DNA of 32,988 nucleotides from Armatimonadota bacterium. Its GTDB lineage: Bacteria > Armatimonadota > Zipacnadia > Zipacnadales > UBA11051. The stretch covers positions 1 to 32,988 of the forward strand of contig JABLXH010000052.1 in assembly GCA_013178155.1 (NCBI GenBank), given 5' to 3'. Shown one piece after another: positions 18,742 to 32,046 of the stretch (within the stretch, counting starts at the first letter, position 1; each line of letters begins with the position of its first letter). Position numbers and translations under genes: made by a program. The notes beneath the pieces are model-generated. The model searched no databases and was not told the origin of the DNA. It saw only the letters and a list, made by a program, of their open reading frames with translations.

Positions 18742-19878
18742 ATGGGCACCAGCCTGGAGCCGGTTTGGGATGCTGTCACGAGCACCCAGGGAGTGCGCTT
18801 CCGACACGTGATCGTGGACGAGGACAATCCCGAGCATCCCCACTGCAAGGCAGCGGGCGACCTCGACGGCGATGGTCGGGCTGATCTGGTGGCGGCTAGT
18901 GCGGGGGCTGGCGGGCTATTCTGGTACCGTGCCCCTGACTGGACGAAGCACTTCGTGGGCGATGGCGTCTACACCACCGACATGGCCCTGGGTGATGTGG
19001 ACGGTGACGGAGCCCTGGACATCATCATCCCCAGCAACGAGGGGTTGATGTGGTACCGCAAACCGTCTGGAAGGGGCGCAGACCCGACCGGGCCCTGGAT
19101 GGCGGCGAACATCGGTTCCGCCGGAGCGCGGATGCACAATGTCGAGGTCGCTGACCTCAACGGCGACGGGCGCCTCGACATCGTGACCCGCCACCAATCC
19201 GGCTTCGGACACCTGCTGGGTAACCAGATACACCTGTGGATCCAGGAGACACCGACGCGCTTCCATCACCGCACTTTCCCCTGTCCCCACGGGGAGGGTC
19301 TGGCGGTCGCCGACGTGGACGGGGACGGACGGCCTGACGTCATCATTGGGGGGCGGTGGTACCGCAACCCCGAGGACCCGTTGGGTGGGGAGTGGACGGA
19401 ACACCGTTACATGCCGGAGGCGCGCTTCGCGACGGGATGGACCAACGGCGACGTCATGGTCCGTGTGGCGGACATCAACGGCGACGGGCGGACGGAGATC
19501 GTGCTGTCGCCGTCGGAGGGCCAGGGGCACCTGTCGTGGTTCGCGCCACCGGCGGACCCGCGCGAGGCCGATTGGCAGGAACACGTCATCGCGGCGACGG
19601 ACCATAGCCACGCCCTGGCCCTGGGTGATCTGGACGGCGACGGGCGGCTGGACGTGGTGACCGCCAAGATGCACCAGGCCTCAGCCCCCCAGAGTGTGGC
19701 TGTGTTCTACAACCGGGGTGCAGCGGGCTGGGCGCGCCAGGAACTGGCAACGACGGGGTCGCACAACATCGCTCTTGGCGACGTTGAGGGTGAGGGCCGC
19801 CTCAGCGTGTTCGGGGCCAACTGGAACAACGTCGCCAGCACCCATGCACGACTGGAGCTGTGGGTCAACGAGGGCTGA
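18742..19878 (+). CDS. FG-GAP/VCBS repeat beta-propeller protein
   Basis: The protein has 378 residues. Seven repeats carry an integrin-like calcium loop of the form D-x-D/N-G-D-G-x-x-D: DLDGDGRAD, DVDGDGALD, DLNGDGRLD, DVDGDGRPD, DINGDGRTE, DLDGDGRLD and a degenerate DVEGEGRLS at the C-terminus. Between loops are aromatic WYR-type strands. This predicts a seven-bladed calcium-stabilised propeller. Such proteins are normally extracellular and bind ligands or carbohydrate, and no catalytic role can be assigned. No signal peptide is visible (it opens MGTSLEPVWDAVTSTQG). GGGAGGA precedes the start and the gene is 17 nt after GH95, so it appears to be the last gene of the operon. Its stop lies 3 nt from the stop of the opposing oxidoreductase gene. 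Confidence 0.8.
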   Translation: MGTSLEPVWDAVTSTQGVRFRHVIVDEDNPEHPHCKAAGDLDGDGRADLVAASAGAGGLFWYRAPDWTKHFVGDGVYTTDMALGDVDGDGALDIIIPSNEGLMWYRKPSGRGADPTGPWMAANIGSAGARMHNVEVADLNGDGRLDIVTRHQSGFGHLLGNQIHLWIQETPTRFHHRTFPCPHGEGLAVADVDGDGRPDVIIGGRWYRNPEDPLGGEWTEHRYMPEARFATGWTNGDVMVRVADINGDGRTEIVLSPSEGQGHLSWFAPPADPREADWQEHVIAATDHSHALALGDLDGDGRLDVVTAKMHQASAPQSVAVFYNRGAAGWARQELATTGSHNIALGDVEGEGRLSVFGANWNNVASTHARLELWVNEG

Positions 19879-19881
19879 GGC

Positions 19882-20877
19882 CTACTTCACATAGACCACG
19901 CTCTCGGTCTCGATGGACTCGATTGCGGCGGCCAGGACCTTCTGCGCCGCCAAGGCATCGGCCCCGGAACCGTCTATCTCCTCGGGCTTGGCGCCCTCGT
20001 CCACCTGTCTCACGAAGCATGCCAGCCGCTCGCGGAAGGTGTCGGTGAAGTCGCGCATCCCGCCCCAGAGGCTGGGGTTGGTATAGACAGTCTTCTCCAG
20101 ACTGTCGGCGGGGTAAAGAGTGACCTGCTGGAACATGTCCTCGATAACGAAACGCCCGCCGGTACCTGCCACCTCGCAGCGCTCCATGGGGTGGCCCCGT
20201 CCCACGTCGTAGCTACCCGTCAATGAGCCCACGACACCATTGACGAAGCGGAGGTTGAACTGCGCGGTGGACCAGATGGTGCGCCCAGGGGCCTTCGTGG
20301 CGAAGCAGTGCACGGCCTCGACGTCACCGCAGAAGTAGCGCATGATGTCCACGGTGTGGGGATGAAGGGCTTTGATCTGAAACCACGGCGAACTTTCTCG
20401 CGGGTTTAGAATCCACATACTCATGTTGACGAAGAGCAGGTGCCCCAGGCGTCCCTGCTCCACCCACTGCTTCGCCAGCCGATGGGCGTGGTTGAAGCGA
20501 TGGTTAAGGTTGATGCCATAGCAGCGGCCCAGTTCCCGCGCTCTGGCGACCATCTCCTCCGCTTCTGCAATGTTGTTGGAGATCGGCTTCTCCCCCAGCA
20601 CATGGCAGCCCGCCTCCAGGGCCTGCATGGTGGGGAGGTAGTGGTCGCTGCCATACTCCTCCCCGCCGGTGGCGATGCTGCAGATGTCCGGCTTGAGGGC
20701 CGCCAGCATCGTCGGCGCGTCGTAAAAGCCGGGCACGCCCAGCCGCGCTGCCGCGGCATCGGCACGCTCGGGAATGAGGTCACAGACCCCGACCAGCTCA
20801 GCCTGCGGGTTCTCCTGGTACAGATCGGCATGGCGGTTCCCTATGGGCCCCAGGCCGATGACACAGACACGTTGCAT
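19882..20877 (-). CDS. Gfo/Idh/MocA family NAD(P)-dependent oxidoreductase
   Basis: The protein has 331 residues. A Rossmann nucleotide-binding start (VIGLGPIGNRH, 6-16) is followed by GEKPISNN with the conserved Lys at 97 of the EKP motif, and LHPHTVDIMRY with H174 and D177 in the catalytic H-x-x-D arrangement. The C-terminal part is the family's substrate-binding sheet. These cytoplasmic enzymes oxidise or reduce sugars, inositols and sugar derivatives. The substrate is unknown, but the surrounding polysaccharide genes suggest a sugar acid or deoxy sugar. The start at 20877 has AAGGAG 7 nt upstream. The gene is transcribed divergently from the alpha/beta hydrolase and convergently with the FG-GAP gene. 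Confidence 0.88.
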   Translation of the reverse strand: MQRVCVIGLGPIGNRHADLYQENPQAELVGVCDLIPERADAAAARLGVPGFYDAPTMLAALKPDICSIATGGEEYGSDHYLPTMQALEAGCHVLGEKPISNNIAEAEEMVARARELGRCYGINLNHRFNHAHRLAKQWVEQGRLGHLLFVNMSMWILNPRESSPWFQIKALHPHTVDIMRYFCGDVEAVHCFATKAPGRTIWSTAQFNLRFVNGVVGSLTGSYDVGRGHPMERCEVAGTGGRFVIEDMFQQVTLYPADSLEKTVYTNPSLWGGMRDFTDTFRERLACFVRQVDEGAKPEEIDGSGADALAAQKVLAAAIESIETESVVYVK

Positions 20878-21051
20878 CGTTCGGCTCCTTGCGCGACACT
20901 CAGACGCCCCCGGTGCGAGGGCGCGCGGGAGAGGGTCCCTTCGCCAACATCGCCCGGACTCCTCCATGGCACCTCCTCAGGAAGGGCAGCGGTGGCGACG
21001 GCACGAACCTGCCGCAACTGCATACAGCACGGGCAAGGAGCAACACGAGAC
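20878..21051. promoter_or_regulatory. Divergent intergenic region between oxidoreductase and hydrolase genes
   Basis: These 174 bp must hold the promoters of both flanking genes. AAGGAG for the oxidoreductase lies at 20885-20890 (minus) and AAGGAG for the hydrolase at 21035-21040 (plus). I see no convincing promoter boxes, operator palindrome or small gene. Confidence 0.4.
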
Positions 21052-22485
21052 ATGATGCTACTCGCTGGGATCGCGCTGGCCTCGCTGGGACAGGTCAGCC
21101 CGGAGCACGCGTGGGTGAGGAAGCTGCTGGCCGGCCACGGGCGGACAGCTCTGGTGGTCACCGCGACCGAGGCGGTCAAGGGTGGCGTGGAGGTCATCGC
21201 CAGGTTGCACTACCCGGGGATGAGCGGTGAGACGGTGACGGGGCAGGTGAAGCTGTACCTGCCCTCGCTGCTGGCTACCGACCCCGAGGCCAGGCTGCCA
21301 CTGCTTCATGTGGCCGGGTATGAGGCCGACCGCAACATGGGGGAGGCCATGGTCGGCCTGGGAATGATCCTGTCCACCCCGCACGGAGAGGAACCCAACC
21401 CGATCGTCCGCGGCGAGAACCTGGATGTGGCCATCCTTCACCGCATGCGGGCGCTGTCCTGTGTTGACGACGCGCGGGTGCTGATCGCCGGTGGCAGCGC
21501 GGGTGGCTACATGACGCTCATGCTGGCTGCCGAGACCTTCCCGCTGGCCGGCTCACAGCCTGATGTGCCACCGGTGAACCTTGGCTACAACTGCGGGTAT
21601 ATCACGCGGAACAAGCCGCTGGCCGAGGCCCAGCCGGAGGGGCAAGAGCATCAGAACATGCCGGTGCTGAACGCCGTCGCGCCCATCGGCGAGGGGGCAA
21701 CCGAGGTCTATGGGCCGGACTACAGCTCCGAAGCCTGGCTGAATGCCTCGCCCGTGACCCGTATTGCGGAGATCACCTGCCCCACCCTGATTGCGGTCAG
21801 CACCGCCGACCTGCTGGTGCCGATCAACCAGTATGCTGCTGACCTGGCCCAGGACTTCGACGAGACGCTCTTCCCGAGAGGGTTCCGCATCGCGCTGGAT
21901 GACTTCATCACGCGCCCCAAGGCCCAGCTCACCTTCCTGGGCAGCGTCCCTGCAGAGGACGTGCACCTTGTCCGGCTGACCGTGCCGACGGACACGCCGA
22001 AGCTGGGGTGGACCGGGGAGCCCGAGGGCCCTCGCCCGGCAACCATCAAGGTGCCCTTCAGCCCGACCAGGCGTTTCACGCTGGCAGTCCTGGACGAGGG
22101 GCCCATCGAGCCACAGGTTGGGCACCTGAAGTACTTCGTCAACCCCGACAAGGGCGACTTCCTGGGTTGGGCAGCAGCGCGGAACTGGGGGCCGGAGCAG
22201 CTAAGCGCGGCCAAGCTGGAACGCCTCATGCACCGTTACCTGGGACGCGAAAGGCATCCCCAGAGGGTTGTGCGCGACGGGAGTCAGGTGACGCTCAACC
22301 GTCTCGACTTCCCTGAGGCGGAGATGGCCGACGTGCGCCGCGGCCTGCGCACTTTCTGCGCCCGCGACGACTGTGCGCGCCGCTTTCGGGAGCTGTATGC
22401 ACAGCTCCCGGCCGAACTGCAGGCCCTCGGGACAGGAGTCACAGACATGAGCCTGGACGAGCTGCGGGCGGCCCTGGCCGACTGA
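21052..22485 (+). CDS. Alpha/beta hydrolase, probably exported esterase or peptidase-like
   Basis: The protein has 477 residues. The nucleophile elbow is GGSAGGYM with S149. A candidate acid, D253, sits after the strand LIAVSTAD, and a candidate His, H358, lies in VGHLKYF. This order and spacing fit a Ser-Asp-His triad with about 100 inserted residues between acid and base. A helical tail of about 110 residues follows. The N-terminus (MMLLAGIALASLG) is a short hydrophobic stretch that could be a weak signal peptide. Substrates cannot be assigned. The start follows AAGGAG at 11 nt, and the longer frame upstream runs through the divergent gene and is rejected. The stop lies 2 nt from the stop of the opposing gene. 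Confidence 0.75.
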   Translation: MMLLAGIALASLGQVSPEHAWVRKLLAGHGRTALVVTATEAVKGGVEVIARLHYPGMSGETVTGQVKLYLPSLLATDPEARLPLLHVAGYEADRNMGEAMVGLGMILSTPHGEEPNPIVRGENLDVAILHRMRALSCVDDARVLIAGGSAGGYMTLMLAAETFPLAGSQPDVPPVNLGYNCGYITRNKPLAEAQPEGQEHQNMPVLNAVAPIGEGATEVYGPDYSSEAWLNASPVTRIAEITCPTLIAVSTADLLVPINQYAADLAQDFDETLFPRGFRIALDDFITRPKAQLTFLGSVPAEDVHLVRLTVPTDTPKLGWTGEPEGPRPATIKVPFSPTRRFTLAVLDEGPIEPQVGHLKYFVNPDKGDFLGWAAARNWGPEQLSAAKLERLMHRYLGRERHPQRVVRDGSQVTLNRLDFPEAEMADVRRGLRTFCARDDCARRFRELYAQLPAELQALGTGVTDMSLDELRAALAD

Positions 22486-22487
22486 CC

Positions 22488-25022
22488 TCAGGGCGTCGGC
22501 GACGGGACGTCAGGCAGCCGCAGCCAGTACTGACCCAGGTCCCGGAGGGCACGGGTGGCCTCGCGGGCCAGTGTCAGCGGATCCTCCAGGTTGCCCTCGG
22601 GCGCGAAGGCCAGACGACGCTGTCGTGTGGCCTCGATCTCCGCGTCGCTCATTCCGAGTTGCTGCAGCGCCGCCACGGTGGCTGACCGCAGGCCCTGTTC
22701 ACGCAGCTTCTGCTGGTGGGCCTGCAGCTGAGCCAGCGACATGCCCTCGGCCCTTGCGCCCACGTCCCGCAGGACCTTCAGCAGCGCCTCGTAACGCTCG
22801 GCAACGGCGAGCATGTCCTCCCCGGCCTGACGCTTGTGGTACACGAAGGCGAGGGCCTGGCGTCGCGCCCAGCCTACGTCGCCAGCCTGCAGGGCCCCGC
22901 CGAGACGGTCGAGGCTGGTCTGCGCCGCCCGCAGCGAGACGTAGAGGTCACGCAGCTTTAGGGCAGCGGTGTTGGCGGCCTCGGCACGCTCGGCCGACGT
23001 CCCCCCGCCGGGTTCGACCCGGGGCAGTTCGGGCACGGGGGCGAGGGTGAACTCGCGGAAATCGTCCCGTGGCGGATCACCGCCGAGGGCCTGGGAGATG
23101 GCCGCCCCGGCGTCAAACATGGCCTGGACCATCTCGCTAAGCATCATCCCGGGCATCCCCCCGGCGCCCAGACCCAGCTTCTCCGTGAGCCACGTTACCG
23201 GGTCGGTCAGCCCGTTGAACACGTCGAGGGCTGCCGTGAGGAACTCACAGGCCTCCATTGCCCTCCGCAGCGCCCGCTTGCCGTCGGACGCCGGGTGTTG
23301 CATGGGAGCGGTGCCCAGGCGCTGCCGCGCGCGGTTGCCCGGGTTCATGCCGTCCCAGCCGGGGTCGAGCACCGGGAGGTCGCCGCTCTCCGCCTGGGCC
23401 AGCAGGGCCCGAGGCAGGCCCATGGCGGCGAGACGGAGACCATCAACGGTGCCGGAGGCCATCCCCGTCGCCTTGGCGCCTGGCAGGGCGGCCACTCGCC
23501 GACAGAACACACCTTGCCACGCCTCCTGGAGAAACGTGAGCGCCATGGTTTCAGGAGCCGTTTCATCCCCGTCGGGGACGCTGGGACGCAGGGCGTCGGC
23601 CAGGTGGGCCAGGTCCACCAGGTCTGCGATCTCGGTGGGCACGGGGGCATTGGGGGCCGGTCTGCCGTCGGGCGCCGACAGGGCCGCCACCAGGCGGCTG
23701 ACCTCCCGTACATGCTCCTGCGCCTTGAGGTAGCGTGCGGTCGCTCCCTCGAACTGCGTCCCCTCGGGTGTGCCGCCGCCCTGGGGGACGCCGCTGAAGG
23801 CCCAGCCACCAGCAACGGCCAGCGTTTCTGCGACGCCCGGCGTCAGGCTTAGCTCGCGCACGACGGAGGCCGTCAGGCCCGGGTCGCCTCCCACCGCCAC
23901 GGGAGGGCCATCGGCGTAGGCAACCTGCAGGCGGTTGCCACGTTCATCCGCGATGGCCACGATCCGGCCTTGAGCATCCCGGTCCAGGGTCACTGCCGGG
24001 GGAACTGAAACCTCGATACGTGAGCGGGGGTAGGCGCTCGGGAAGTACCGAACGAAGAGCCCACCGGGATGGTAGCTCCAGCGCTCTTCGGGTATCGGGC
24101 GACTGCCCACGGGCGGCGCTGGATTCCCGGACAGGACGGCTTCGCGCTCAAGGGCCTCAAACGCCACCTCTTCCATGACCATGAGCTTGTCAAAACGTGC
24201 CATCGCCTCGGCAGCTTGCTGCAGGGCGGGCCCCAGGCGCTCAAACATCGCAGTCTGGACGGTCACGAGCCGGTCCAGCGCCACCTGGAACTCCTCCATA
24301 GGGACCTGCTCGCCACGCTCCATCCGCTGGCCCACGGCCTCAAGCTGCGTCTGGGCCTGCTCCAACTCAGCCTGATGAACAGCGAACATCTCCTCCGGGG
24401 TGGCATCGAAGGCTTGCAGAGACTCAAAGAGCGTGGGATCATCGAGCCCCGGTAGCCTCGGCTGGGGGCCACGAGCGGCCGCATTGGCGGCTGCGACGCC
24501 GTCTGCGCCCAGAAGCGACAGGGCGACGGCCTGGCGATCAGCAGACAGCTTCGAGATGGCCTCACGCTCGGCGAGCGCCCAGATGATCACTTGCACAGCA
24601 GTCTGGGGAATGTCGGGGTGCTCGGTCCAGTTCCACAGCACTTCGTGCACTAACGCCGCCGTCTTCCCCCGCAAACGCGCCAGGGCATAGCCGTCGCCGC
24701 CTCCCGGCCCGTATGATCCGGCGCGCAGGCAAAAGGTAGCGGCGTCCATCTCAAAGCAGCCGGGGACGGGCAGCACATAGCCGTAGCCGCGGACGCGTGG
24801 CATCTCCGCCAGGGGCCAGAAGCCAGGTGGCCGGAAGTCGTCCAGGAAGGGGACGTCGGTGTTGGCGTCATCCAGACAAGTGGTTAGACCCGGCTCCAGG
24901 TAGGCTCTCCAGGCCGCCATATACTCCTCTACCGCCTGGCGGTCGGCGGGAGTCAGCGAGTCCTTATCGGCAGCCAGAGCCGGTGTCAGCATCAGCACGA
25001 GAAGCAGTCGTGAACCGCGCAT
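22488..25022 (-). CDS. Uncharacterised secreted protein with thioester-domain-like Cys...Gln segment
   Basis: The protein has 844 residues and I do not recognise a named family over its length. A Sec signal covers 1-18 (cleavage near ALAAD). Residues about 80-155 form the most distinctive region: a Cys (C98) in TFCLRAG, a glycine-rich GPGGGDGY turn, then a helix ending in TAVQVIIWAL with Q144. A Cys followed by Q-x-x-I-W recalls the Cys-Gln crosslink of Gram-positive thioester adhesin domains, but this is motif resemblance only. Residues 200-300 are helical and Glu/Gln-rich. Residues about 310-380 look like beta-strands with an RHS-like DRDAQGRIVAIADERGN turn. The rest is mostly helical, ending in a TPSP-rich tail. 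GGAGGT lies 6 nt before the ATG. The gene stands alone, divergent from the Kelch gene. Confidence 0.6.
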   Translation of the reverse strand: MRGSRLLLVLMLTPALAADKDSLTPADRQAVEEYMAAWRAYLEPGLTTCLDDANTDVPFLDDFRPPGFWPLAEMPRVRGYGYVLPVPGCFEMDAATFCLRAGSYGPGGGDGYALARLRGKTAALVHEVLWNWTEHPDIPQTAVQVIIWALAEREAISKLSADRQAVALSLLGADGVAAANAAARGPQPRLPGLDDPTLFESLQAFDATPEEMFAVHQAELEQAQTQLEAVGQRMERGEQVPMEEFQVALDRLVTVQTAMFERLGPALQQAAEAMARFDKLMVMEEVAFEALEREAVLSGNPAPPVGSRPIPEERWSYHPGGLFVRYFPSAYPRSRIEVSVPPAVTLDRDAQGRIVAIADERGNRLQVAYADGPPVAVGGDPGLTASVVRELSLTPGVAETLAVAGGWAFSGVPQGGGTPEGTQFEGATARYLKAQEHVREVSRLVAALSAPDGRPAPNAPVPTEIADLVDLAHLADALRPSVPDGDETAPETMALTFLQEAWQGVFCRRVAALPGAKATGMASGTVDGLRLAAMGLPRALLAQAESGDLPVLDPGWDGMNPGNRARQRLGTAPMQHPASDGKRALRRAMEACEFLTAALDVFNGLTDPVTWLTEKLGLGAGGMPGMMLSEMVQAMFDAGAAISQALGGDPPRDDFREFTLAPVPELPRVEPGGGTSAERAEAANTAALKLRDLYVSLRAAQTSLDRLGGALQAGDVGWARRQALAFVYHKRQAGEDMLAVAERYEALLKVLRDVGARAEGMSLAQLQAHQQKLREQGLRSATVAALQQLGMSDAEIEATRQRRLAFAPEGNLEDPLTLAREATRALRDLGQYWLRLPDVPSPTP

Positions 25023-25173
25023 CGTGCCACCTCCACGACATCCCGGGGAATGAGACCGGCAGTCCCGAGTACTGCCTTCGCGAGCCGGGCCTTGAGCTCC
25101 TTCCCCCCGGGGTGGCGCCGGGGGCAGGGCCTGGAGGGCTTAGTGGCGAACACCTCCGTGAGGTGAGCAAGAC
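25023..25173. promoter_or_regulatory. Divergent intergenic region with two potential RNA hairpins
   Basis: These 151 bp separate the uncharacterised secreted protein from the Kelch gene. On the plus strand a 7-bp GC stem, CCCCCGG/CCGGGGG (25104-25110 with 25118-25124), has a 7-nt loop. Nearer the Kelch start, CACCTC-CGT-GAGGTG (25151-25165) is a perfect 6-bp stem whose 3' arm is the likely Shine-Dalgarno site. Confidence 0.4.
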
Positions 25174-26214
25174 ATGATGCGAGCCTGCGTGGCAGGTGGC
25201 ATGCTGCTGGCTGTCGTTGGGATTGCCTCCGCTACAGGGCCGCTGGTCCTCGACTGGTCTCAGGGCCCACAGCCCCCGCAGGCGCAGGCGGGCGCCGCGG
25301 TGGGGCTGATCGGCGAGCACCTCGTAGTGGCCGGCGGCACGCACTGGCCCACAACGGACTTCAAGCGCTATTTCGCCTGGACGCAGCTCTACAACCTGCG
25401 CACAGGTGAGTGGAGCATGGGCCCGGACCTGCCGCGGGAACTGGCCTATGCGGCCTACACGAGCTACGACGGCCGGCTGTACCTGTTCGGTGGCTGCGGC
25501 CCGGACCGCCAGCCGACGGCGGAGAGCTTTGTGCTGTCGCGCACCGGAACCGATGCGCGAGGACATCCGACCTTTGCCTGGACCGCAGGACCCGCTCTGC
25601 CTGAACCCCTGGTCTTCGGCGTCGGCGACCGGGTCGGGAGCACTTTCTACCTGTTGGCGGGAGGCCGTGACTACGACCTCAAGAGCATCAGCAATGACCT
25701 GTACGCCCTCGACCTGCGAGCTGGCAAGGGGCAGTGGCGGAAGCTGGCGGCGATGCCGGGCCCGCCCACGGCATACCCGGGCTTCGCGGCCTGCGGAGGT
25801 AAGCTCTACGCTTTCGGCGGCTACCGGGCGGACCGCGAGACGCCCTACAACGTTGCCGACGCCTACTGCTACGACCCGGCGAGCGACGCCTGGACGGCCG
25901 TGAGGCGACTGCCCTGGGCCGCCCGCTGCCTGACCGCCATAGGCTACGATGACCGCTACGTGCTGCTCTTTGGCCCCTACCTCGCCTCGGCGGAGGACGT
26001 GGCGGTCCACGGCCAGGACTTTGGAGTCAGCGGCGCGGTGCTGCTGTATGACACCGTGACCGACACCTACAAGCCGCTGCAGCCGATGCCGCGAGCGCTT
26101 ACGACCATCGGGATCGTTCGCCGGGGGAACGACCTCTACGGGGTCGGCGGCGAACTGCTGTACAAGATCCGTTCGCCCTACCTGTTCATCGGCAGAATCA
26201 CTCAAAGCCGGTAG
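25174..26214 (+). CDS. Secreted Kelch-repeat propeller, NanM/mutarotase-like
   Basis: The protein has 346 residues with a signal peptide at about 1-20. Kelch motifs repeat through the chain: a GG or FGG strand followed by Tyr and Trp at regular spacing (LVVAGGTHW, LYLFGGCG, YLLAGGRDY, LYAFGGYR, LYGVGGE). This predicts a six-bladed propeller. Length and layout resemble N-acetylneuraminate epimerase (NanM) and related cyclically permuted mutarotases, which speed anomer exchange of sugars in the periplasm. Whether this protein has that activity or only binds is open. The start follows GAGGTG at 8 nt. The aminotransferase gene lies 28 nt downstream, probably in one transcript. Confidence 0.75.
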   Translation: MMRACVAGGMLLAVVGIASATGPLVLDWSQGPQPPQAQAGAAVGLIGEHLVVAGGTHWPTTDFKRYFAWTQLYNLRTGEWSMGPDLPRELAYAAYTSYDGRLYLFGGCGPDRQPTAESFVLSRTGTDARGHPTFAWTAGPALPEPLVFGVGDRVGSTFYLLAGGRDYDLKSISNDLYALDLRAGKGQWRKLAAMPGPPTAYPGFAACGGKLYAFGGYRADRETPYNVADAYCYDPASDAWTAVRRLPWAARCLTAIGYDDRYVLLFGPYLASAEDVAVHGQDFGVSGAVLLYDTVTDTYKPLQPMPRALTTIGIVRRGNDLYGVGGELLYKIRSPYLFIGRITQSR

Positions 26215-26242
26215 CGAGCAGTCACTCCCGGGAGTGAGACAC

Positions 26243-27604
26243 ATGCCTGAGCACCAGTGGAACGACGCCGAGAGAGCGGCACTGCGCGAGGATGCGCTGC
26301 GCTACATCATCCCCCACTTCGCCAGCAATGCGGAGTTGGCCAAGGGGCCGAAGATCTTCGTCCGCGGCGAGGGGTGCTATGTCTGGGACCTGGAGGGGCG
26401 CAAGTACTTTGACTCCTTTGCCACGCTGCTGACCACCGTAACCGGACACGTCCGTCCTGAAGTCACCGAGGCGGTCAGGCAACAGATGCAGACGCTGGAG
26501 TTCTTCCCCAACTATGTAGATGCGTTCACCGTCCCCCTCATCGAGTTGGCGCGCAAGCTGGCGGAGATCATGCCCGGTGACCTTAGCGTCAGCTTCTTTG
26601 TCAATAGCGGCTCGGAGGCCAATGAGACGGCGCTGAAGATGGCACGGCAGTACCACGTGGAACGGGGCGAGAAGCACCGCTTCAAGTTCATTGCGCGACG
26701 CGACTCCTACCACGCGACGACACTGGGAGCCGGCGCGGTGACCGGGCTGCGATGGTTCCGGGAGTACTTTGAGCCGCTGATGCCTGGCGCGCTCTTTGTC
26801 CGGGCGGCCCGTGAACGGGACAAGCCCGCGGGGATGACCTCTGCCGAATATGGCCAGCAGTGTCTGGACGAGATCGAGAGACTCATCGCCGATGAGGGGT
26901 CTGAGACTATCGCCGGGTTCATCATGGACCCTCTCCCCGGCTCCAACACCGGCTACCCCTTGCCCCCGGAGGGCTACCTGCAGGGGGTGCGCGAGATCTG
27001 TGACCGGTACGGCATCCTGCTGATCTTCGACGAAGTTCAGACCGGGTTCGGGCATACCGGCCGGTGGTTCTTCTGCGAGCACTATGGCGTCACGCCCGAC
27101 ATCATGACCATCGGCAAGGGCTTCACCGGCGGGTTCATTCCCCTGGGAGCGGCGGTCACCAAGCCGCAGGTTGCTGAGGTCTTTCGCCGCGGTCCGGGAA
27201 CCGAACTGCGCTCCGGCAGCACCTACGGAGGACACACGGTTGCCTGCGCCGCGACCCTGGCGAACATCGGCATCATCGAGCGTGAGGGACTGCTGGAGAA
27301 CGCGCGGGTACAGGGCGAGTACCTGAAGGCCCGTATGGACGAGATGCGGGCGCGGCATGCCATCGTCGGTGGGGCGAGCGGGATCGGGCTGCTCTGGGCG
27401 CTACAACTGGACGTAGACCCGGCCCTGGGCGTTGGTACGTGGATTCGCGACTGGTGCCATGAGCATGGCATGATCCTGCGGAACAACGGTGACATCCTGG
27501 TCCTGGCTCCCTCGCTAATCATCACCCGCGAGGAGTGCGACCTGATGCTGGGGCTGATCGAGGACGCGGTGACGGAGGCGTCAGCCCATTACGGACTGAC
27601 CTGA
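26243..27604 (+). CDS. Class III PLP-dependent aminotransferase
   Basis: The protein has 453 residues. The fold-type I signature is clear: NSGSEANETALKMAR binds the PLP phosphate, DEVQTGFG carries D263 that pairs with the pyridine nitrogen, and TIGKGFTGG carries the Schiff-base lysine K292. The class transfers amino groups between omega-amino acids or amino sugars and 2-oxo acids; family members include 4-aminobutyrate, ornithine and beta-alanine aminotransferases. The amino donor cannot be told from the sequence. GGAG lies 8 nt before this ATG. An in-frame GTG at 26234 overlaps that site and is less likely. The protein is cytoplasmic, placed between two secreted propeller proteins. Confidence 0.9.
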   Translation: MPEHQWNDAERAALREDALRYIIPHFASNAELAKGPKIFVRGEGCYVWDLEGRKYFDSFATLLTTVTGHVRPEVTEAVRQQMQTLEFFPNYVDAFTVPLIELARKLAEIMPGDLSVSFFVNSGSEANETALKMARQYHVERGEKHRFKFIARRDSYHATTLGAGAVTGLRWFREYFEPLMPGALFVRAARERDKPAGMTSAEYGQQCLDEIERLIADEGSETIAGFIMDPLPGSNTGYPLPPEGYLQGVREICDRYGILLIFDEVQTGFGHTGRWFFCEHYGVTPDIMTIGKGFTGGFIPLGAAVTKPQVAEVFRRGPGTELRSGSTYGGHTVACAATLANIGIIEREGLLENARVQGEYLKARMDEMRARHAIVGGASGIGLLWALQLDVDPALGVGTWIRDWCHEHGMILRNNGDILVLAPSLIITREECDLMLGLIEDAVTEASAHYGLT

Positions 27605-27658
27605 CGGGCTCGCGCTGCCATGGGCGCCAAGGGTCCGCGGACAGAAAGGGTAAAGCAG

Positions 27659-28864
27659 ATGCGGCAGATACTCACGGCGGTCGCAGCGCTCGCGCTGCTG
27701 GGATCGATGACGGCGGCCCATGCTGCGGATTGGCCCAACTTCTTTGGGCCCACGCGCAACGGCCTGGCGCCAGACACTGGGCTCAACAAGGACTGGGCGA
27801 CGCGGCCGCCAAGGGAGCTTTGGCGCGTCACGCTGTCTGACGGCGGATATGCCGGGCCGTCAGTCGCTGACGGGAAGGTCTTCATCGTTGACCACCAGGG
27901 CGCCAACGACATCGTGAGGGCCTTGCGCCTGGAGACCGGGGAACAGGTCTGGGAGTTCGCCTATCCCGACCTGACCGAGGCGAACTTCGGTTTCACCGAG
28001 GCCACCCCGGTGTATGCCGAGGGCCTCCTGTACGTCTGCAGCCGGCTGGGGACGATCCGTTGCTTGAACGCCGCGGATGGTAGCCAGCTCTGGTCGCGGA
28101 GCATGACCAAGGAGTTTGGCGCACGGGCGCCGGGATGGCTGTTCGCGGAGTCGGTGCTGGTGGACGGCGACCGGGTCGTGATCTGCACCGGCGCGGCCGA
28201 CCGCAATGTCATCGCCCTCGACCGGAAGACCGGTGAGCTGATCTGGCGCGGCGGCAACGGCGACATGCCCGGGTACGCCACGGCTGTTCCGGCCGAAATC
28301 CTGGGCGTGAAGCAGTATGTCATCTGCACCGGCCCCGGCATCATCGGCGTCAGGGCCGACGATGGCGGGCTGCTCTGGTCCATCCCTTGGAGGAATCAGG
28401 CCGAGGTGAACGCCTCCCTGCCCATCGTCATCGGCAACTCGGTGTTCATCACCAGCGGCTATGGCATCGGCTGCGCGATGTACGATATCACCGAAAACGG
28501 CCCCGTCCAGCGCTGGCGCAACAGGGACATCTCCGCCCACTTCAGCTCGCCGATCTACTACAACGGCTACATCTACAGCAACAGCGACCCTGGCAACTTG
28601 GTGTGCATGGCTCCGGAGAACGGCGCGGTAGCCTGGAAGCAGGGCGGTTTTGAGAAAGGCGGCCTGCTCATCGCCGATGGGGTCATTCCCGCCCTGTCGG
28701 GCAACACTGGTGAACTCATCATGGCCAAGGCAGACCCTGCGGGATACGAGGAACTGGGACGTATCACGCCGCTGGGGGGGCAAAGCTGGACGGCACCGAT
28801 CCTCGCCGACGGCCGTCTCATCGTCCGCAACACCGCGGCAATGACCTGCCTCGACTTGCGCTAG
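27659..28864 (+). CDS. Secreted PQQ-like beta-propeller protein
   Basis: The protein has 401 residues. A signal peptide ends near AHAAD (about 22). The start at 27659 puts the signal at the N-terminus; an in-frame ATG at 27620 adds 13 polar residues and is disfavoured. Repeats of the PQQ-propeller type follow, with alternating strands and a recurring A-x-D-G-x-x-x-W turn (NAADGSQLWSR, DRKTGELIWRG, RADDGGLLWSI). WPNFFGPTRNG after the signal is typical of outer-surface PQQ-like proteins in polysaccharide-degrading lineages. I see no cofactor-site residues that would make it a quinoprotein dehydrogenase, so a binding or scaffold role is more likely. Confidence 0.82.
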   Translation: MRQILTAVAALALLGSMTAAHAADWPNFFGPTRNGLAPDTGLNKDWATRPPRELWRVTLSDGGYAGPSVADGKVFIVDHQGANDIVRALRLETGEQVWEFAYPDLTEANFGFTEATPVYAEGLLYVCSRLGTIRCLNAADGSQLWSRSMTKEFGARAPGWLFAESVLVDGDRVVICTGAADRNVIALDRKTGELIWRGGNGDMPGYATAVPAEILGVKQYVICTGPGIIGVRADDGGLLWSIPWRNQAEVNASLPIVIGNSVFITSGYGIGCAMYDITENGPVQRWRNRDISAHFSSPIYYNGYIYSNSDPGNLVCMAPENGAVAWKQGGFEKGGLLIADGVIPALSGNTGELIMAKADPAGYEELGRITPLGGQSWTAPILADGRLIVRNTAAMTCLDLR

Positions 28865-28874
28865 TGCGGGAGCC

Positions 28875-28899
28875 GTCCGCGGTGCCAGGGGCGGCGGAC
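28875..28899. terminator. Possible hairpin between convergent genes
   Basis: GTCCGC (28875-28880) pairs with GCGGAC (28894-28899) across a 13-nt loop, in the 89-bp gap between two convergent genes. There is no T-run on either strand, so intrinsic termination is uncertain. Confidence 0.25.
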
Positions 28900-28953
28900 C
28901 GCTCATGGCAGACCAGGCTAACCTGTGCTGACCGAGAACGGACCTTCGGCCGG

Positions 28954-31900
28954 TTAGCCCTCCGGAACCTGGACCACGCTACCGATGTTCGCCGTGTCAC
29001 CGGGTCCGATGGCCATGACGACAAACCGGCCTACCCCGTCACTGTCAGCGTCGGGCAAGGTCTCAGGCAGCGGTTGGTCGCACTGCAGGTCCAGACCCCT
29101 CGACTGGACTACCCGAGCCAGCGGCCGGCCCGTCTCGTCAACCACCGCCATCCCGGGCTCCACGAAGTACAGCGGCGCGTTCGTGGTGATGGCGTCGCCG
29201 TTGGCCGTGACGATGGTGCCACGCCCTGTCCGCAGGTCCTGGCCGGCGCAGGAGAAGCGGTCGGGCGCCAGCACTCGCTCGATGCGCACCGAGGCCTCAT
29301 GCGTGGCGCTCTGCACCGGGACCCAACGCCCCTCGTTGGCGGATGTGAGGCACGGCTCCTCGAGGGTGACGATCCCCTGGCCGTAGTCCACACTCCGGAC
29401 AGTCGCCCGGCGCAGCCCCGGGCCCGTCACGGCGGTATTCCCTACCGCGAGCAGACGTCCGTCAAAGAGCCGGGCCCTGACAAGGGCGCCCGCGGCGTCC
29501 AGGGCGGCGCAGGCGGCACGGCCCTGCACCCGCAGCGTGCCGTCCACCCGGTATTCCTGATCCAGGTTGGTGGCTGAGAAGATGATGTGGCGGCGGTCGC
29601 CGAGACGCACCTCTACCGCCACGGCGCCCTCCGCGGGCTCGACGGGAAGCCGACGCACGCTGGTGACGTACGGGGCGCCGAGGAAGCTTTCGTGCACGGT
29701 CACGAAGGCGCTGCTCAGGTCGTTGCCTGTGCGGCGGCGGACTACCCACTTGAGCTTCTCCGGGAACTGCGGCCGGCGCTGCGGCGTGCCGTCGCAGGCG
29801 AAGACTGTCTCGTCTTGCGGCACGAGATGCGAGCGCAACGTCGCTCCGCGCGGGTAGTCCTTCGGGAACAGGTCGGCATCGCGGTTCATGACCCACTGCA
29901 CCCACGGGGCTGGGCCGAAACCGTCTTCTTGCGCCGCCTCCTGTACGTTGTAGAGCCACTGGAAGGCACTGCCGCGGTAGTTGCCGTAATAGTGGCCGTA
30001 CTTGCCGTCCCTCATCTCCTCGTCGTCATAGAAGATGCCGTAGGGCACGTCGGGCCCCGCCAGCGTCCCCTGCTCCCGTGGCGGACTTAGCGGCAGGCTC
30101 GCACTGAACTCGGCCTCCGTCCCATGTACCAGCCAGTCATGTTGTGTCCCGCCGTCCACCCGGAAGATGTCCACCGTATAGGCGTGGTCGGGGTCGGCCT
30201 CGACCAGGAACACGGTGCGCCGATAGTCGCGCACGCGCCCGGGGTACGCGGCCACGTCGGTGACCTCGGCCATCTGCGCGAAGGGGCCCGGGTGGAAGGC
30301 CACGAGTTGGCCCCGCCCCAGCTCGGACCGCCTGGCGTCCACCATGCAGGTATTGTGCACCACGGTGTGGGCCAGGAAGCCAAAGCGCCGGGGGTCGTAG
30401 GTGTCGGCGGTCTCCGGATAGCCCAGGTCGGGTGTCAGGGGCTGGTTGTAGCCATACAGATCGAGGTTCAGCAGGTCGAAGTGGGTGTGTCCAACGTAGT
30501 GACCATAATACAGTGACAGGCCGAAACGGCTCTTGTCGACGCCGGTCTGCAGTGTCAGGAACCCCAACCCCGGCAGCAGGCTGCTGCTGACACCCATCTC
30601 CTCTGCGGTATCGGCGGCTGCGGCGATGATTTCGTCGCCCCGGTAGACATCGAACAGGTCGCGGCCGAACTCGGTGGTGCCTCCGGTCTGCACCATGGCT
30701 TTGGCTTGCGCCGGCAGGCGCATGTGGGCCCAGGCCCGCTCCTGATAGGGAGCGGTCGTGCCCAGGCCGCCGGAGAACATGTTGTTGGAGTCGCCCAGCG
30801 GTGTGGTGTGCCGGCCGAGTACAAGCATCTCCAGCGGCGCCGTATACACACTCCGCAGGCGGGCCTCCTGCCACAGGTTGACCCCGTTGGCCAGCAGCAG
30901 GTCGGCGATATCGGCCAAGTCCGTCATCCAGCCGCAGTTATAGGACGGGGACTCAAAGGGGATGCCGTCGCGGTGTAGCAAGTTGATGAGCATGTCACGG
31001 AAGCTGGTGTCCGTGTACGTTGCCGAAGGAACGCGGTTATCCAGCACCCAGTCCACGATCTGTGACGAAGTGGGCTGACCGGTCTCAGTGTCCAGGGCCA
31101 AGGCGGCCAGCAGGGCGGCCTTCTGGTGCATCCCCCAGTTGCCCTGGATGCGATGAGAGCCGTCCGTAATATCCCGGGCCATGACCCGCAGAAGCCGTTC
31201 CTCGATGTGGGCTTGTAGCCCGGCGCCGTCAAGGCCCGCCAGCCGCTGCAAGTCCGTGTCCTGTGCCAGCGCGGGGAAGACAGCGTCATAGGCCCGCGCG
31301 GCTGCCTCGACTGTCCACGTCTCCCAGGTATGATACAGCAGGCGGCCCTTGTAGCTGGGGTCCACCTCCTTGCCGTAGCTGGACTGGGTCTCATACTGAT
31401 AGTCGGGGTAGTAGACCGCCAGTTGCCACAGCAGCACGGCGCACTTGTGGGCGTAACGCGGGTCGCCGGTGATGAGGTAAGCTCGGGACAGGTTGTCCAA
31501 TGCAGGATGCAGGTAGTTGCGGACCAGCCAGTGAGCGTAGTACCCGACAAACCAGTAGCGGAACTTGTCGCCCGGTGCCTTCTCGTACCCCCAGCCGTCG
31601 TCCACGTACTCGCCGGTCAGGAGCGATCGGTCCTGCATACCGCTCTTGAGGTAGGCATAGAAGTCGTTGCTGGGGTAGGTCTCACCCCCGACGGGGCATG
31701 TCACTTTGTAAGGGTGCTCGAAGTCCATCTTCCAGCCATACATGCTGGCGACCTTGAGGACCTCCTGCCCGTGTACCGGGCACTGATTGGTGTTGACGAT
31801 GCCGGCTCGAGGTACCTGGGGCGGGGGCACGAGGTCGCACAAGCGCTGATCGTCCACGGAGAGCCAGCGGTCCGCCTCCCTGACAATGCGATCGCGCTCC

Positions 31901-32046
31901 TGCCGTGCCCACTCGTACTGCTGCAGGTTCTCCTGCAGGTGGGCCAGTCGCTCTGCGGTGTAGTACCGGCGCCCGGTCTTGCCCCAGGCCGCCGTCAGGA
32001 GACAGGCGCCGCCGAGGCACAATGCCAGCAACTGCAGTCTCAGCAA
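28954..32046 (-). CDS. Secreted heparinase II/III-like polysaccharide lyase, TTG start
   Basis: The protein has 1030 residues with a signal peptide at about 1-22. An N-terminal region holds two short Cys motifs, CPVHG (C89) and CPVGG (C117), which could form a small metal-binding knuckle. A helical toroid spans about 160-500. The beta-sheet lyase domain begins around GHYVGHTHFDLLNLDLYG (H520, H522). A C-terminal beta-rich extension of about 180 residues (from about 850) has no family I can name. The toroid plus sheet order matches heparinase II/III family lyases acting on uronate polymers. The start codon is TTG at 32046, supported by AAGGAG exactly 8 nt upstream and by the signal peptide. 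The gene is divergent from the last gene of the window. Confidence 0.8.
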   Translation of the reverse strand: MLRLQLLALCLGGACLLTAAWGKTGRRYYTAERLAHLQENLQQYEWARQERDRIVREADRWLSVDDQRLCDLVPPPQVPRAGIVNTNQCPVHGQEVLKVASMYGWKMDFEHPYKVTCPVGGETYPSNDFYAYLKSGMQDRSLLTGEYVDDGWGYEKAPGDKFRYWFVGYYAHWLVRNYLHPALDNLSRAYLITGDPRYAHKCAVLLWQLAVYYPDYQYETQSSYGKEVDPSYKGRLLYHTWETWTVEAAARAYDAVFPALAQDTDLQRLAGLDGAGLQAHIEERLLRVMARDITDGSHRIQGNWGMHQKAALLAALALDTETGQPTSSQIVDWVLDNRVPSATYTDTSFRDMLINLLHRDGIPFESPSYNCGWMTDLADIADLLLANGVNLWQEARLRSVYTAPLEMLVLGRHTTPLGDSNNMFSGGLGTTAPYQERAWAHMRLPAQAKAMVQTGGTTEFGRDLFDVYRGDEIIAAAADTAEEMGVSSSLLPGLGFLTLQTGVDKSRFGLSLYYGHYVGHTHFDLLNLDLYGYNQPLTPDLGYPETADTYDPRRFGFLAHTVVHNTCMVDARRSELGRGQLVAFHPGPFAQMAEVTDVAAYPGRVRDYRRTVFLVEADPDHAYTVDIFRVDGGTQHDWLVHGTEAEFSASLPLSPPREQGTLAGPDVPYGIFYDDEEMRDGKYGHYYGNYRGSAFQWLYNVQEAAQEDGFGPAPWVQWVMNRDADLFPKDYPRGATLRSHLVPQDETVFACDGTPQRRPQFPEKLKWVVRRRTGNDLSSAFVTVHESFLGAPYVTSVRRLPVEPAEGAVAVEVRLGDRRHIIFSATNLDQEYRVDGTLRVQGRAACAALDAAGALVRARLFDGRLLAVGNTAVTGPGLRRATVRSVDYGQGIVTLEEPCLTSANEGRWVPVQSATHEASVRIERVLAPDRFSCAGQDLRTGRGTIVTANGDAITTNAPLYFVEPGMAVVDETGRPLARVVQSRGLDLQCDQPLPETLPDADSDGVGRFVVMAIGPGDTANIGSVVQVPEG

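Follow-up and report, generated by a model that had tools for sequence, protein, structure and literature searches.

A structurally novel candidate thioester domain in an apparently exported protein of an Armatimonadota bacterium, with TGA at the cysteine codon in three relatives

In the sections of the literature drawn on here, the bonding Gln of thioester domains (TEDs) lies on a late β-strand, and the Gln of a helical TQxxΦW motif hydrogen-bonds the Cys backbone without being essential for the bond (sections of PMC4450167 and PMC6194298). The bonded pairs are Cys138-Gln267 in CpTIE and Cys109-Gln261 in SfbI, identities among the solved domains go down to 12%, and a 2015 survey placed TEDs exclusively in Gram-positive bacteria (sections of PMC4450167). 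The open-licence papers that we searched include no title on TEDs of Gram-negative bacteria and no report of a TED from the lineage considered here, in line with the sequence-only reading of this DNA, which had called it a lineage not known for such a module. In this study, we describe a gene on the minus strand (22488-25022) of a stretch of 32,988 nucleotides from an Armatimonadota bacterium, referred to as the window (positions 1 to 32,988 of contig JABLXH010000052.1, assembly GCA_013178155.1). The open reading frame (ORF) and its translation give the 844 residues claimed in that reading, and export of the product is suggested by a signal-like start, judged by eye. This apparently exported protein is likely to carry a structurally novel thioester domain, in which conservation and structural models point to a bond between C98 and Q567.

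The sequence-only reading had instead placed a thioester between C98 and Q144, inside a module of 47 residues. Both residues stand exactly where it had located them, C98 in TFCLRAG (TGC, 24731-24729) and Q144 in VQVIIWAL (CAA, 24593-24591), and their surroundings agree with the published motifs: FCLR fits [YFL]CΦζ, with FCG, FCC or FCA in place of FCL in some members of the phylum, and VQVIIW fits QxxΦW, with the leading Thr not kept. Conservation, which might have told against the proposal, holds for both, as C98 and Q144 are invariant in the 26 aligned sequences found with the whole window protein (the window, a paralogue from its own genome and 24 others; a 27th match, L007, was dropped, its domain not being in frame). 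The window protein is matched in 24 of the 61 related genomes, its own included. A first scan for related loci with this protein alone returned no loci; they were found by a scan with the domain alignment, which gave 79 loci from the best 80 of 127 matches. The scan pattern demanded the Cys, whose conservation among these loci is therefore built in. A wider set assembled without this demand comprises 83 distinct entries, a number of which are fragments of a single gene; 81 of them have a codon in the Cys column, which encodes Cys in 78 cases and is TGA in 3, and two lack the column. Q144, the analogue of the helical TED Gln, is kept in 80 of 80 entries (3 are without it), as is W148 of the same QxxΦW motif (24579-24581; likewise 80/80). 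In the profile alignment, the helix Gln Q140 (24603-24605) is mostly conserved (73/80 entries; E, R, H or W otherwise).

A second Gln, Q567 (CAG, 23322-23324), is present in 75 of 75 entries of the wider set where the profile reaches it, with 8 entries not reached. For the 51 entries outside the pattern-selected set, the Cys column gives C in 46, TGA in 3 and none in 2, Q144 is found in 48/48, and Q567 in 47/47 with 4 not reached. Where the Q567 column is missing, the entry stops at a contig end, contains a run of N, is a split or frame-broken piece, or is the paralogue from the window's own genome (L005). In this paralogue the closing-strand motif is degenerate, RQPSGQSNRP, and the Gln is retained. 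MAFFT puts letters other than Q at this position in L023 (R, at a contig end), L026 (A, at a frame break), L043 (A, on a contig as long as that of L026), L172 (D) and L177 (S). In the profile alignment L172 has Q, L026 has the motif in a different frame, and Q567 is not reached in L023 and L177. In an alignment of 75 rows including the window, C98, Q144, W148, W315 and Q567 are kept throughout, and the invariant residues include one Cys and two Gln, namely C70, Q116 and Q274 of L092, equivalent to C98, Q144 and Q567. Left out of these 75 rows were L043 (frame break before Q567), L050, L051 and L060 (contig ends) and L077 (a near-duplicate of L076). Another alignment, of 49 of the 79 loci, was made without L043, L050, L051, L060 and the short members.

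These short members, of 308-351 residues and many of them from Sphingomonadales, show where the second Gln belongs. They end in a motif like VAVPGNTxRQRLxQSGR, and in 22 of them the protein stops 9-24 residues past the late Gln. The window counterpart, PGNRARQRLG with Q567, is preceded by some 200 inserted residues, so that the C98-Q567 spacing is 469 residues in the window protein and about 200 in the short relatives. As in TEDs, the Cys and the late Gln flank the helical core. Q567 thus occupies the place of the bonding Gln, whereas the Gln of the QxxΦW helix is described for known TEDs, in the sections cited, as non-bonding and dispensable for the bond (PMC4450167, PMC6194298). For these two reasons the C98-Q144 crosslink is not supported and has been dropped; its invariant ends speak for it, but we hold such a bond to be highly improbable. 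What stands of the sequence-only reading is the likeness to a thioester domain, through the Cys motif, the QxxΦW helix and a weak fold match to three TEDs. Alignments and models together indicate that the bond partner of C98 is likely to be Q567.

The fold, which in TEDs consists of a β-barrel and a three-helix bundle, was approached with AlphaFold2 models. A short Croceibacterium protein, predicted from the 75-row alignment, gave a mean predicted local distance difference test (pLDDT) of 92.3 and a predicted template modelling score (pTM) of 0.90. In this model Cys70 ends the strand 60-70, which is followed by helices 94-104, 112-123 (with Q112, Q116 and W120) and 133-142, by more helices, and by strands 231-236, 241-248, 264-268 and 276-282, Q274 standing just before the last of them. 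The model of the window protein (pLDDT 83.6, 50 rows; 827 residues, numbered so that adding 17 gives the protein numbering) keeps this order of elements, with a strand 71-81 that has the Cys at its end, a helix 123-134 carrying Q144, and strands 540-544 and 552-558, Q567 lying just ahead of the second of these two. VIA-align was run with the short model on the top 1000 chains of Foldseek, of which 997 were compared, and only three chains reached Z ≥ 2, all of them TEDs: Cpa (4c0z; Z 5.0, 111 aligned residues, 3.7 Å), SfbI (5a0l; Z 4.8, 118 aligned, 4.7 Å) and CpTIE (5a0d; Z 4.8, 110 aligned, 4.3 Å). Other TEDs of the literature, such as 5a0n and the class II structures, are not in these three rows and may lie outside the 1000 chains. 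If ungapped, the range ends for CpTIE (60↔128 and 280↔273) match C70 to Cys138 and Q274 to Gln267, and the end 280↔267 for SfbI, likewise if ungapped, matches Q274 to Gln261. Residue conservation, the order of elements in the models and the fold resemblance are direct observations; given that nothing else was found among the chains compared and that the bonded residues appear to coincide, we regard this resemblance as weak but specific.

Small TED proteins (L034-L041) occur in the window's own phylum; among 201 genomes, 8 have one at E ≤ 0.001, and 7 of these exceed the Pfam cut-off. C and QxAIW come first, followed by a late Gln in records long enough to include it, and 7 of 9 rows end in PEP-CTERM-like tails. 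For the family described here, the link to known TEDs at the sequence level is borderline. A member from Nostoc linckia scores 23.1 bits against the Pfam TED family PF08341, whose cut-off is 22, and 3 of the 26 domain rows match it at E ≤ 10, the best at 0.15, scores that fit the known divergence of TEDs.

A number of results weigh against the assignment. The other five of the six whole proteins scanned, among them the window protein, have no TED match; for the window protein this holds at E ≤ 1, so that the comparison with the Pfam TED profile suggested in the sequence-only reading came out negative. Only 4 of 75 trimmed core rows match the same family at E ≤ 1, the best at 0.011, and a profile comparison between the family and L034-L041 aligned the helix motif alone, with a probability of 0.5%. 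Foldseek returned nothing for the short model at E ≤ 0.001, enzymes included. The tool itself rates a Z of about 5 as weak, and such a value could reflect a common arrangement; the residue matches read from range ends presuppose that no gap lies near those ends, and an ungapped count at the N-terminal end of SfbI gives residue 111, not Cys109. VIA on the whole window model gave mostly helical matches, with no TED in the 50 rows listed, an absence that is uninformative for a model as long as 827 residues. Furthermore, the residue preceding Q567 is Arg, not hydrophobic as in the weak ΦQζΦΦ motif. PDB sequence searches found no convincing relative of the family, and a PDB search with L034-L041 was of no help for it. 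The weak Foldseek and profile comparisons would also suit a TED-like fold in which the bond has been lost, the free Cys and Gln being conserved for packing alone; packing would nevertheless hardly account for a Cys and a Gln that are strictly kept across distant phyla, together with the scattered Cys/selenocysteine switches described below, and we consider this reading quite unlikely.

The codon of C98, TGC in the window gene, is replaced by an in-frame TGA at precisely that position in three relatives: L176 (genome G227), L167 (G117) and the second copy of L168 (G214), in the contexts SY-TGA-LHAG, SY-TGA-LKAG and SY-TGA-LRAG. The two genes of G214 form a tandem pair, one copy with TGT and the other with TGA (at 2180 in L168). 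Across 55 gene copies, one of which (L177) contains a run of N, three stops fall in the matched core, all at the Cys codon, and two more at profile position 282, where the match ends; as every one of the three core stops hits the Cys codon, assembly error is an unlikely source. The ratio of non-synonymous to synonymous substitution rates (dN/dS) in the G214 pair is 0.124 over the 60 codons before the TGA and 0.121 over the 390 after it, and in the G227 gene compared with L198 it is 0.214 after the TGA and saturated before it; these values, for two of the three TGA genes, are rough, with dS about 2 and near saturation. The sequence behind the TGA is under purifying selection in both tested genes. 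A tRNA for selenocysteine (tRNA-Sec) is found above cut-off in G227, G117 and G214, as it is in 196 of 291 genomes of the phylum, and SelB in G227, G117 and the window's own genome (G000), though not in G214, a draft that is 88% complete. In the window's own genome, tRNA-Sec adjoins selB (G000:C191:8191-10197).

At a distance of 22-27 nucleotides past the UGA, a GU-looped hairpin is present in 3 of 3 TGA genes versus 4 of 52 Cys genes, 2 of those 4 at -8 kcal/mol or below, by criteria that were fixed after inspection of the three TGA genes. Compared with shuffled sequences, the stabilities of the three hairpins have z values of -3.36, 0.30 and -1.01, one being unusually stable, and Rfam has no selenocysteine insertion sequence (SECIS) match in the three genes. 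A tree of 127 rows, built by a quick method, scatters the TGA rows and implies three changes, the row of G117 being long-branched and unsure in its placement. Taken as codons, these TGA positions probably encode selenocysteine in the three relatives.

The precise coincidence of the TGA with the Cys codon, seen in three genes, suggests a chemically reactive residue at this position. Selenocysteine is usual in redox enzymes, and glutathione peroxidases have a Sec-Gln-Trp centre, so that a TGA at the Cys position, with an invariant Gln and Trp nearby in sequence, could point to an enzyme whose catalytic thiol or selenol, C98 or its Sec counterpart, is held by Gln and Trp. However, no second Cys is invariant across the 75 rows, Q567 is invariant too in spite of its distance in sequence, Foldseek has no significant enzyme match, and the sole compared chains at Z ≥ 2 are TEDs; we find such an enzyme unlikely. 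If the family is a thioester domain, as we prefer to read it, some members may be selenoproteins in which Sec replaces the bond-forming Cys, giving an internal selenoester and thus a faster-reacting covalent warhead. We put this forward tentatively, as a possibility of some weight. In the literature searched, no protein example of an internal or intramolecular selenoester is described, and the papers on selenoesters deal, by title, mostly with peptide chemistry.

From the analogy with known TEDs we infer the C98-Q567 bond, its reactivity and a role in covalent amine capture or attachment. As the protein folds, C98, which ends a β-strand, would attack with its thiol the side-chain amide of Q567, where the closing β-strand begins; ammonia would be released and a buried internal thioester formed. 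Q144, which by the same analogy is not the predicted partner, and W148, both on the second core helix, would hold the Cys backbone as TQxxΦW does in known TEDs. An amine on a target surface could then open the thioester and become covalently bound to Q567. The bond may anchor the protein to the envelope of its own cell or to its surroundings, which is conceivable because the short members end soon after the Gln, without an LPXTG tail. No LPxTG/A motif was found within the last 60 residues of 80 ORFs, some of them cut by contig ends, and no stalk families were found in the six whole proteins scanned.

The titles of the best 80 of 127 matches name Armatimonadota (Zipacnadia, WS1, Fimbriimonadaceae), Acidobacteria, Aminicenantes, cyanobacteria and Meiothermus, and further Sphingomonadales, Lysobacter, genera of Bacteroidota, a myxobacterium, WOR-3 and a planctomycete. 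The host phyla of the family are usually counted as Gram-negative, with an outer membrane; the missing Gram-positive names say little, because they are missing from the best 80 of 127 matches. By profile, the family is found in 61 of the 291 genomes from the phylum of the window, 14 of 247 of the phylum of L069, 1 of 140 of the phylum of L072 (the centre genome itself) and 4 of 118 of the order of L092, the last three counts each including a centre genome picked for having the gene. A search of the PLSDB plasmids with the short protein gave no hit (E ≤ 1e-5).

In the window protein, which starts with MRGSRLLLVLMLTPALA, residues 1-17 (24972-25022; this and all other features on the minus strand) form a probable signal peptide, and signal-like N-termini, also judged by eye, recur in many homologues. 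The N-termini of L098, L109, L118 and L120 look by eye like twin-arginine signal peptides, so some members may be exported in the folded state; those of L072 and L075 are lipoprotein-like by eye. Conservation and the model delimit an N-terminal lobe of the thioester-like domain at residues 43-188 (24459-24896), running from strands to the core helices and containing C98, the predicted bond-forming Cys, in a [YF]C-L-[HRNK]-like motif. A helical linker follows (residues 189-290, 24153-24458, from model helices and alignment), and then a conserved β-hairpin (residues 311-343, 23994-24092, RWSYHPGGLFVRY, from alignment and model strands), whose W315 is found in 84 of 84 alignment rows that have a letter there. 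Residues 344-553 (23364-23993) make up the insert, by length comparison not in the short relatives; it begins with an RHS/YD-like hairpin, and Pfam RHS_repeat matches 10 of the 75 rows at E ≤ 1, the best at 0.00097. The closing strand region (residues 554-575, 23298-23363, PGWDGMNPGNRARQRLGTAPMQ), defined by the alignments and the last two model strands given above, holds Q567, the predicted bond-forming Gln by its invariance and by the equivalence with CpTIE Gln267 and SfbI Gln261 read from range ends. Beyond it, long members have a C-terminal helical region of about 265 residues in the model (residues 580-844, 22491-23285). This region has a conserved DPPxxD stretch, GDPPRDDF in the window protein, and lacks a Pfam match. 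The window protein as a whole has no Pfam-A family at E ≤ 1 and no NCBIfam family at E ≤ 0.01.

The genome of the window, 5.5 Mb in 211 contigs, has one paralogue, at L005:6167-8689 on contig C2. The neighbours of the window gene, at 18742-32046, include genes for an FG-GAP protein, a GFO/IDH/MocA oxidoreductase, a Kelch protein, a class III aminotransferase, a PQQ propeller and a heparinase II/III-like protein. By eye, no partner gene is common across lineages in the neighbourhoods of 12 loci; L092 and L108, from two related sphingomonad genomes, have neighbours in common.

If the C98-Q567 reading is true, the family, with members in Armatimonadota, Acidobacteriota, Cyanobacteria, Sphingomonadales and others, would extend covalent thioester chemistry to bacteria that are for the most part environmental, and would raise the question of what such outer-membrane bacteria attach to. 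The short members, of about 320 residues, should express easily, which makes the claim directly testable by mass. The genome with one Cys and one TGA copy would in turn allow a biological selenoester to be compared with its thioester twin.

With the class I TEDs (SfbI, Cpa, CpTIE; PF08341) the family shares the export signal, the [YFL]CΦζ Cys at a strand end, the helical core with QxxΦW and, as predicted, the bonding Gln on the closing strand. It differs from them in having no C-terminal LPXTG and in its hosts, usually counted as Gram-negative. It also differs in the path from the third helix to the closing strands, where class I has a linker of about 10 residues (a section of PMC6194298) and the family has helices and a hairpin, of about 120 residues in the short model and about 375 in the window model. 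A large insertion at this point is shared with the class II TEDs (BaTIE, SaTIE, EfmTIE86); theirs is a β-sandwich with a slipknot (a section of PMC6194298), whereas that of the family is mostly helical in the models. Gram-positive TIE proteins combine a TED with an isopeptide/ester stalk and an LPXTG anchor; in the family, neither the anchor nor stalk domains were found (80 ORFs and six proteins, respectively). The small TED proteins L034-L041 have the same order of C, QxAIW and late Gln, but differ in their PEP-CTERM-like tails and show no significant profile match to the family. In the case of bacterial selenoproteins with Cys homologues, the likeness lies in the in-frame TGA at the Cys position, the hairpin behind it and the Sec machinery, and the difference in the protein concerned, which here is a predicted thioester domain rather than a known redox enzyme.

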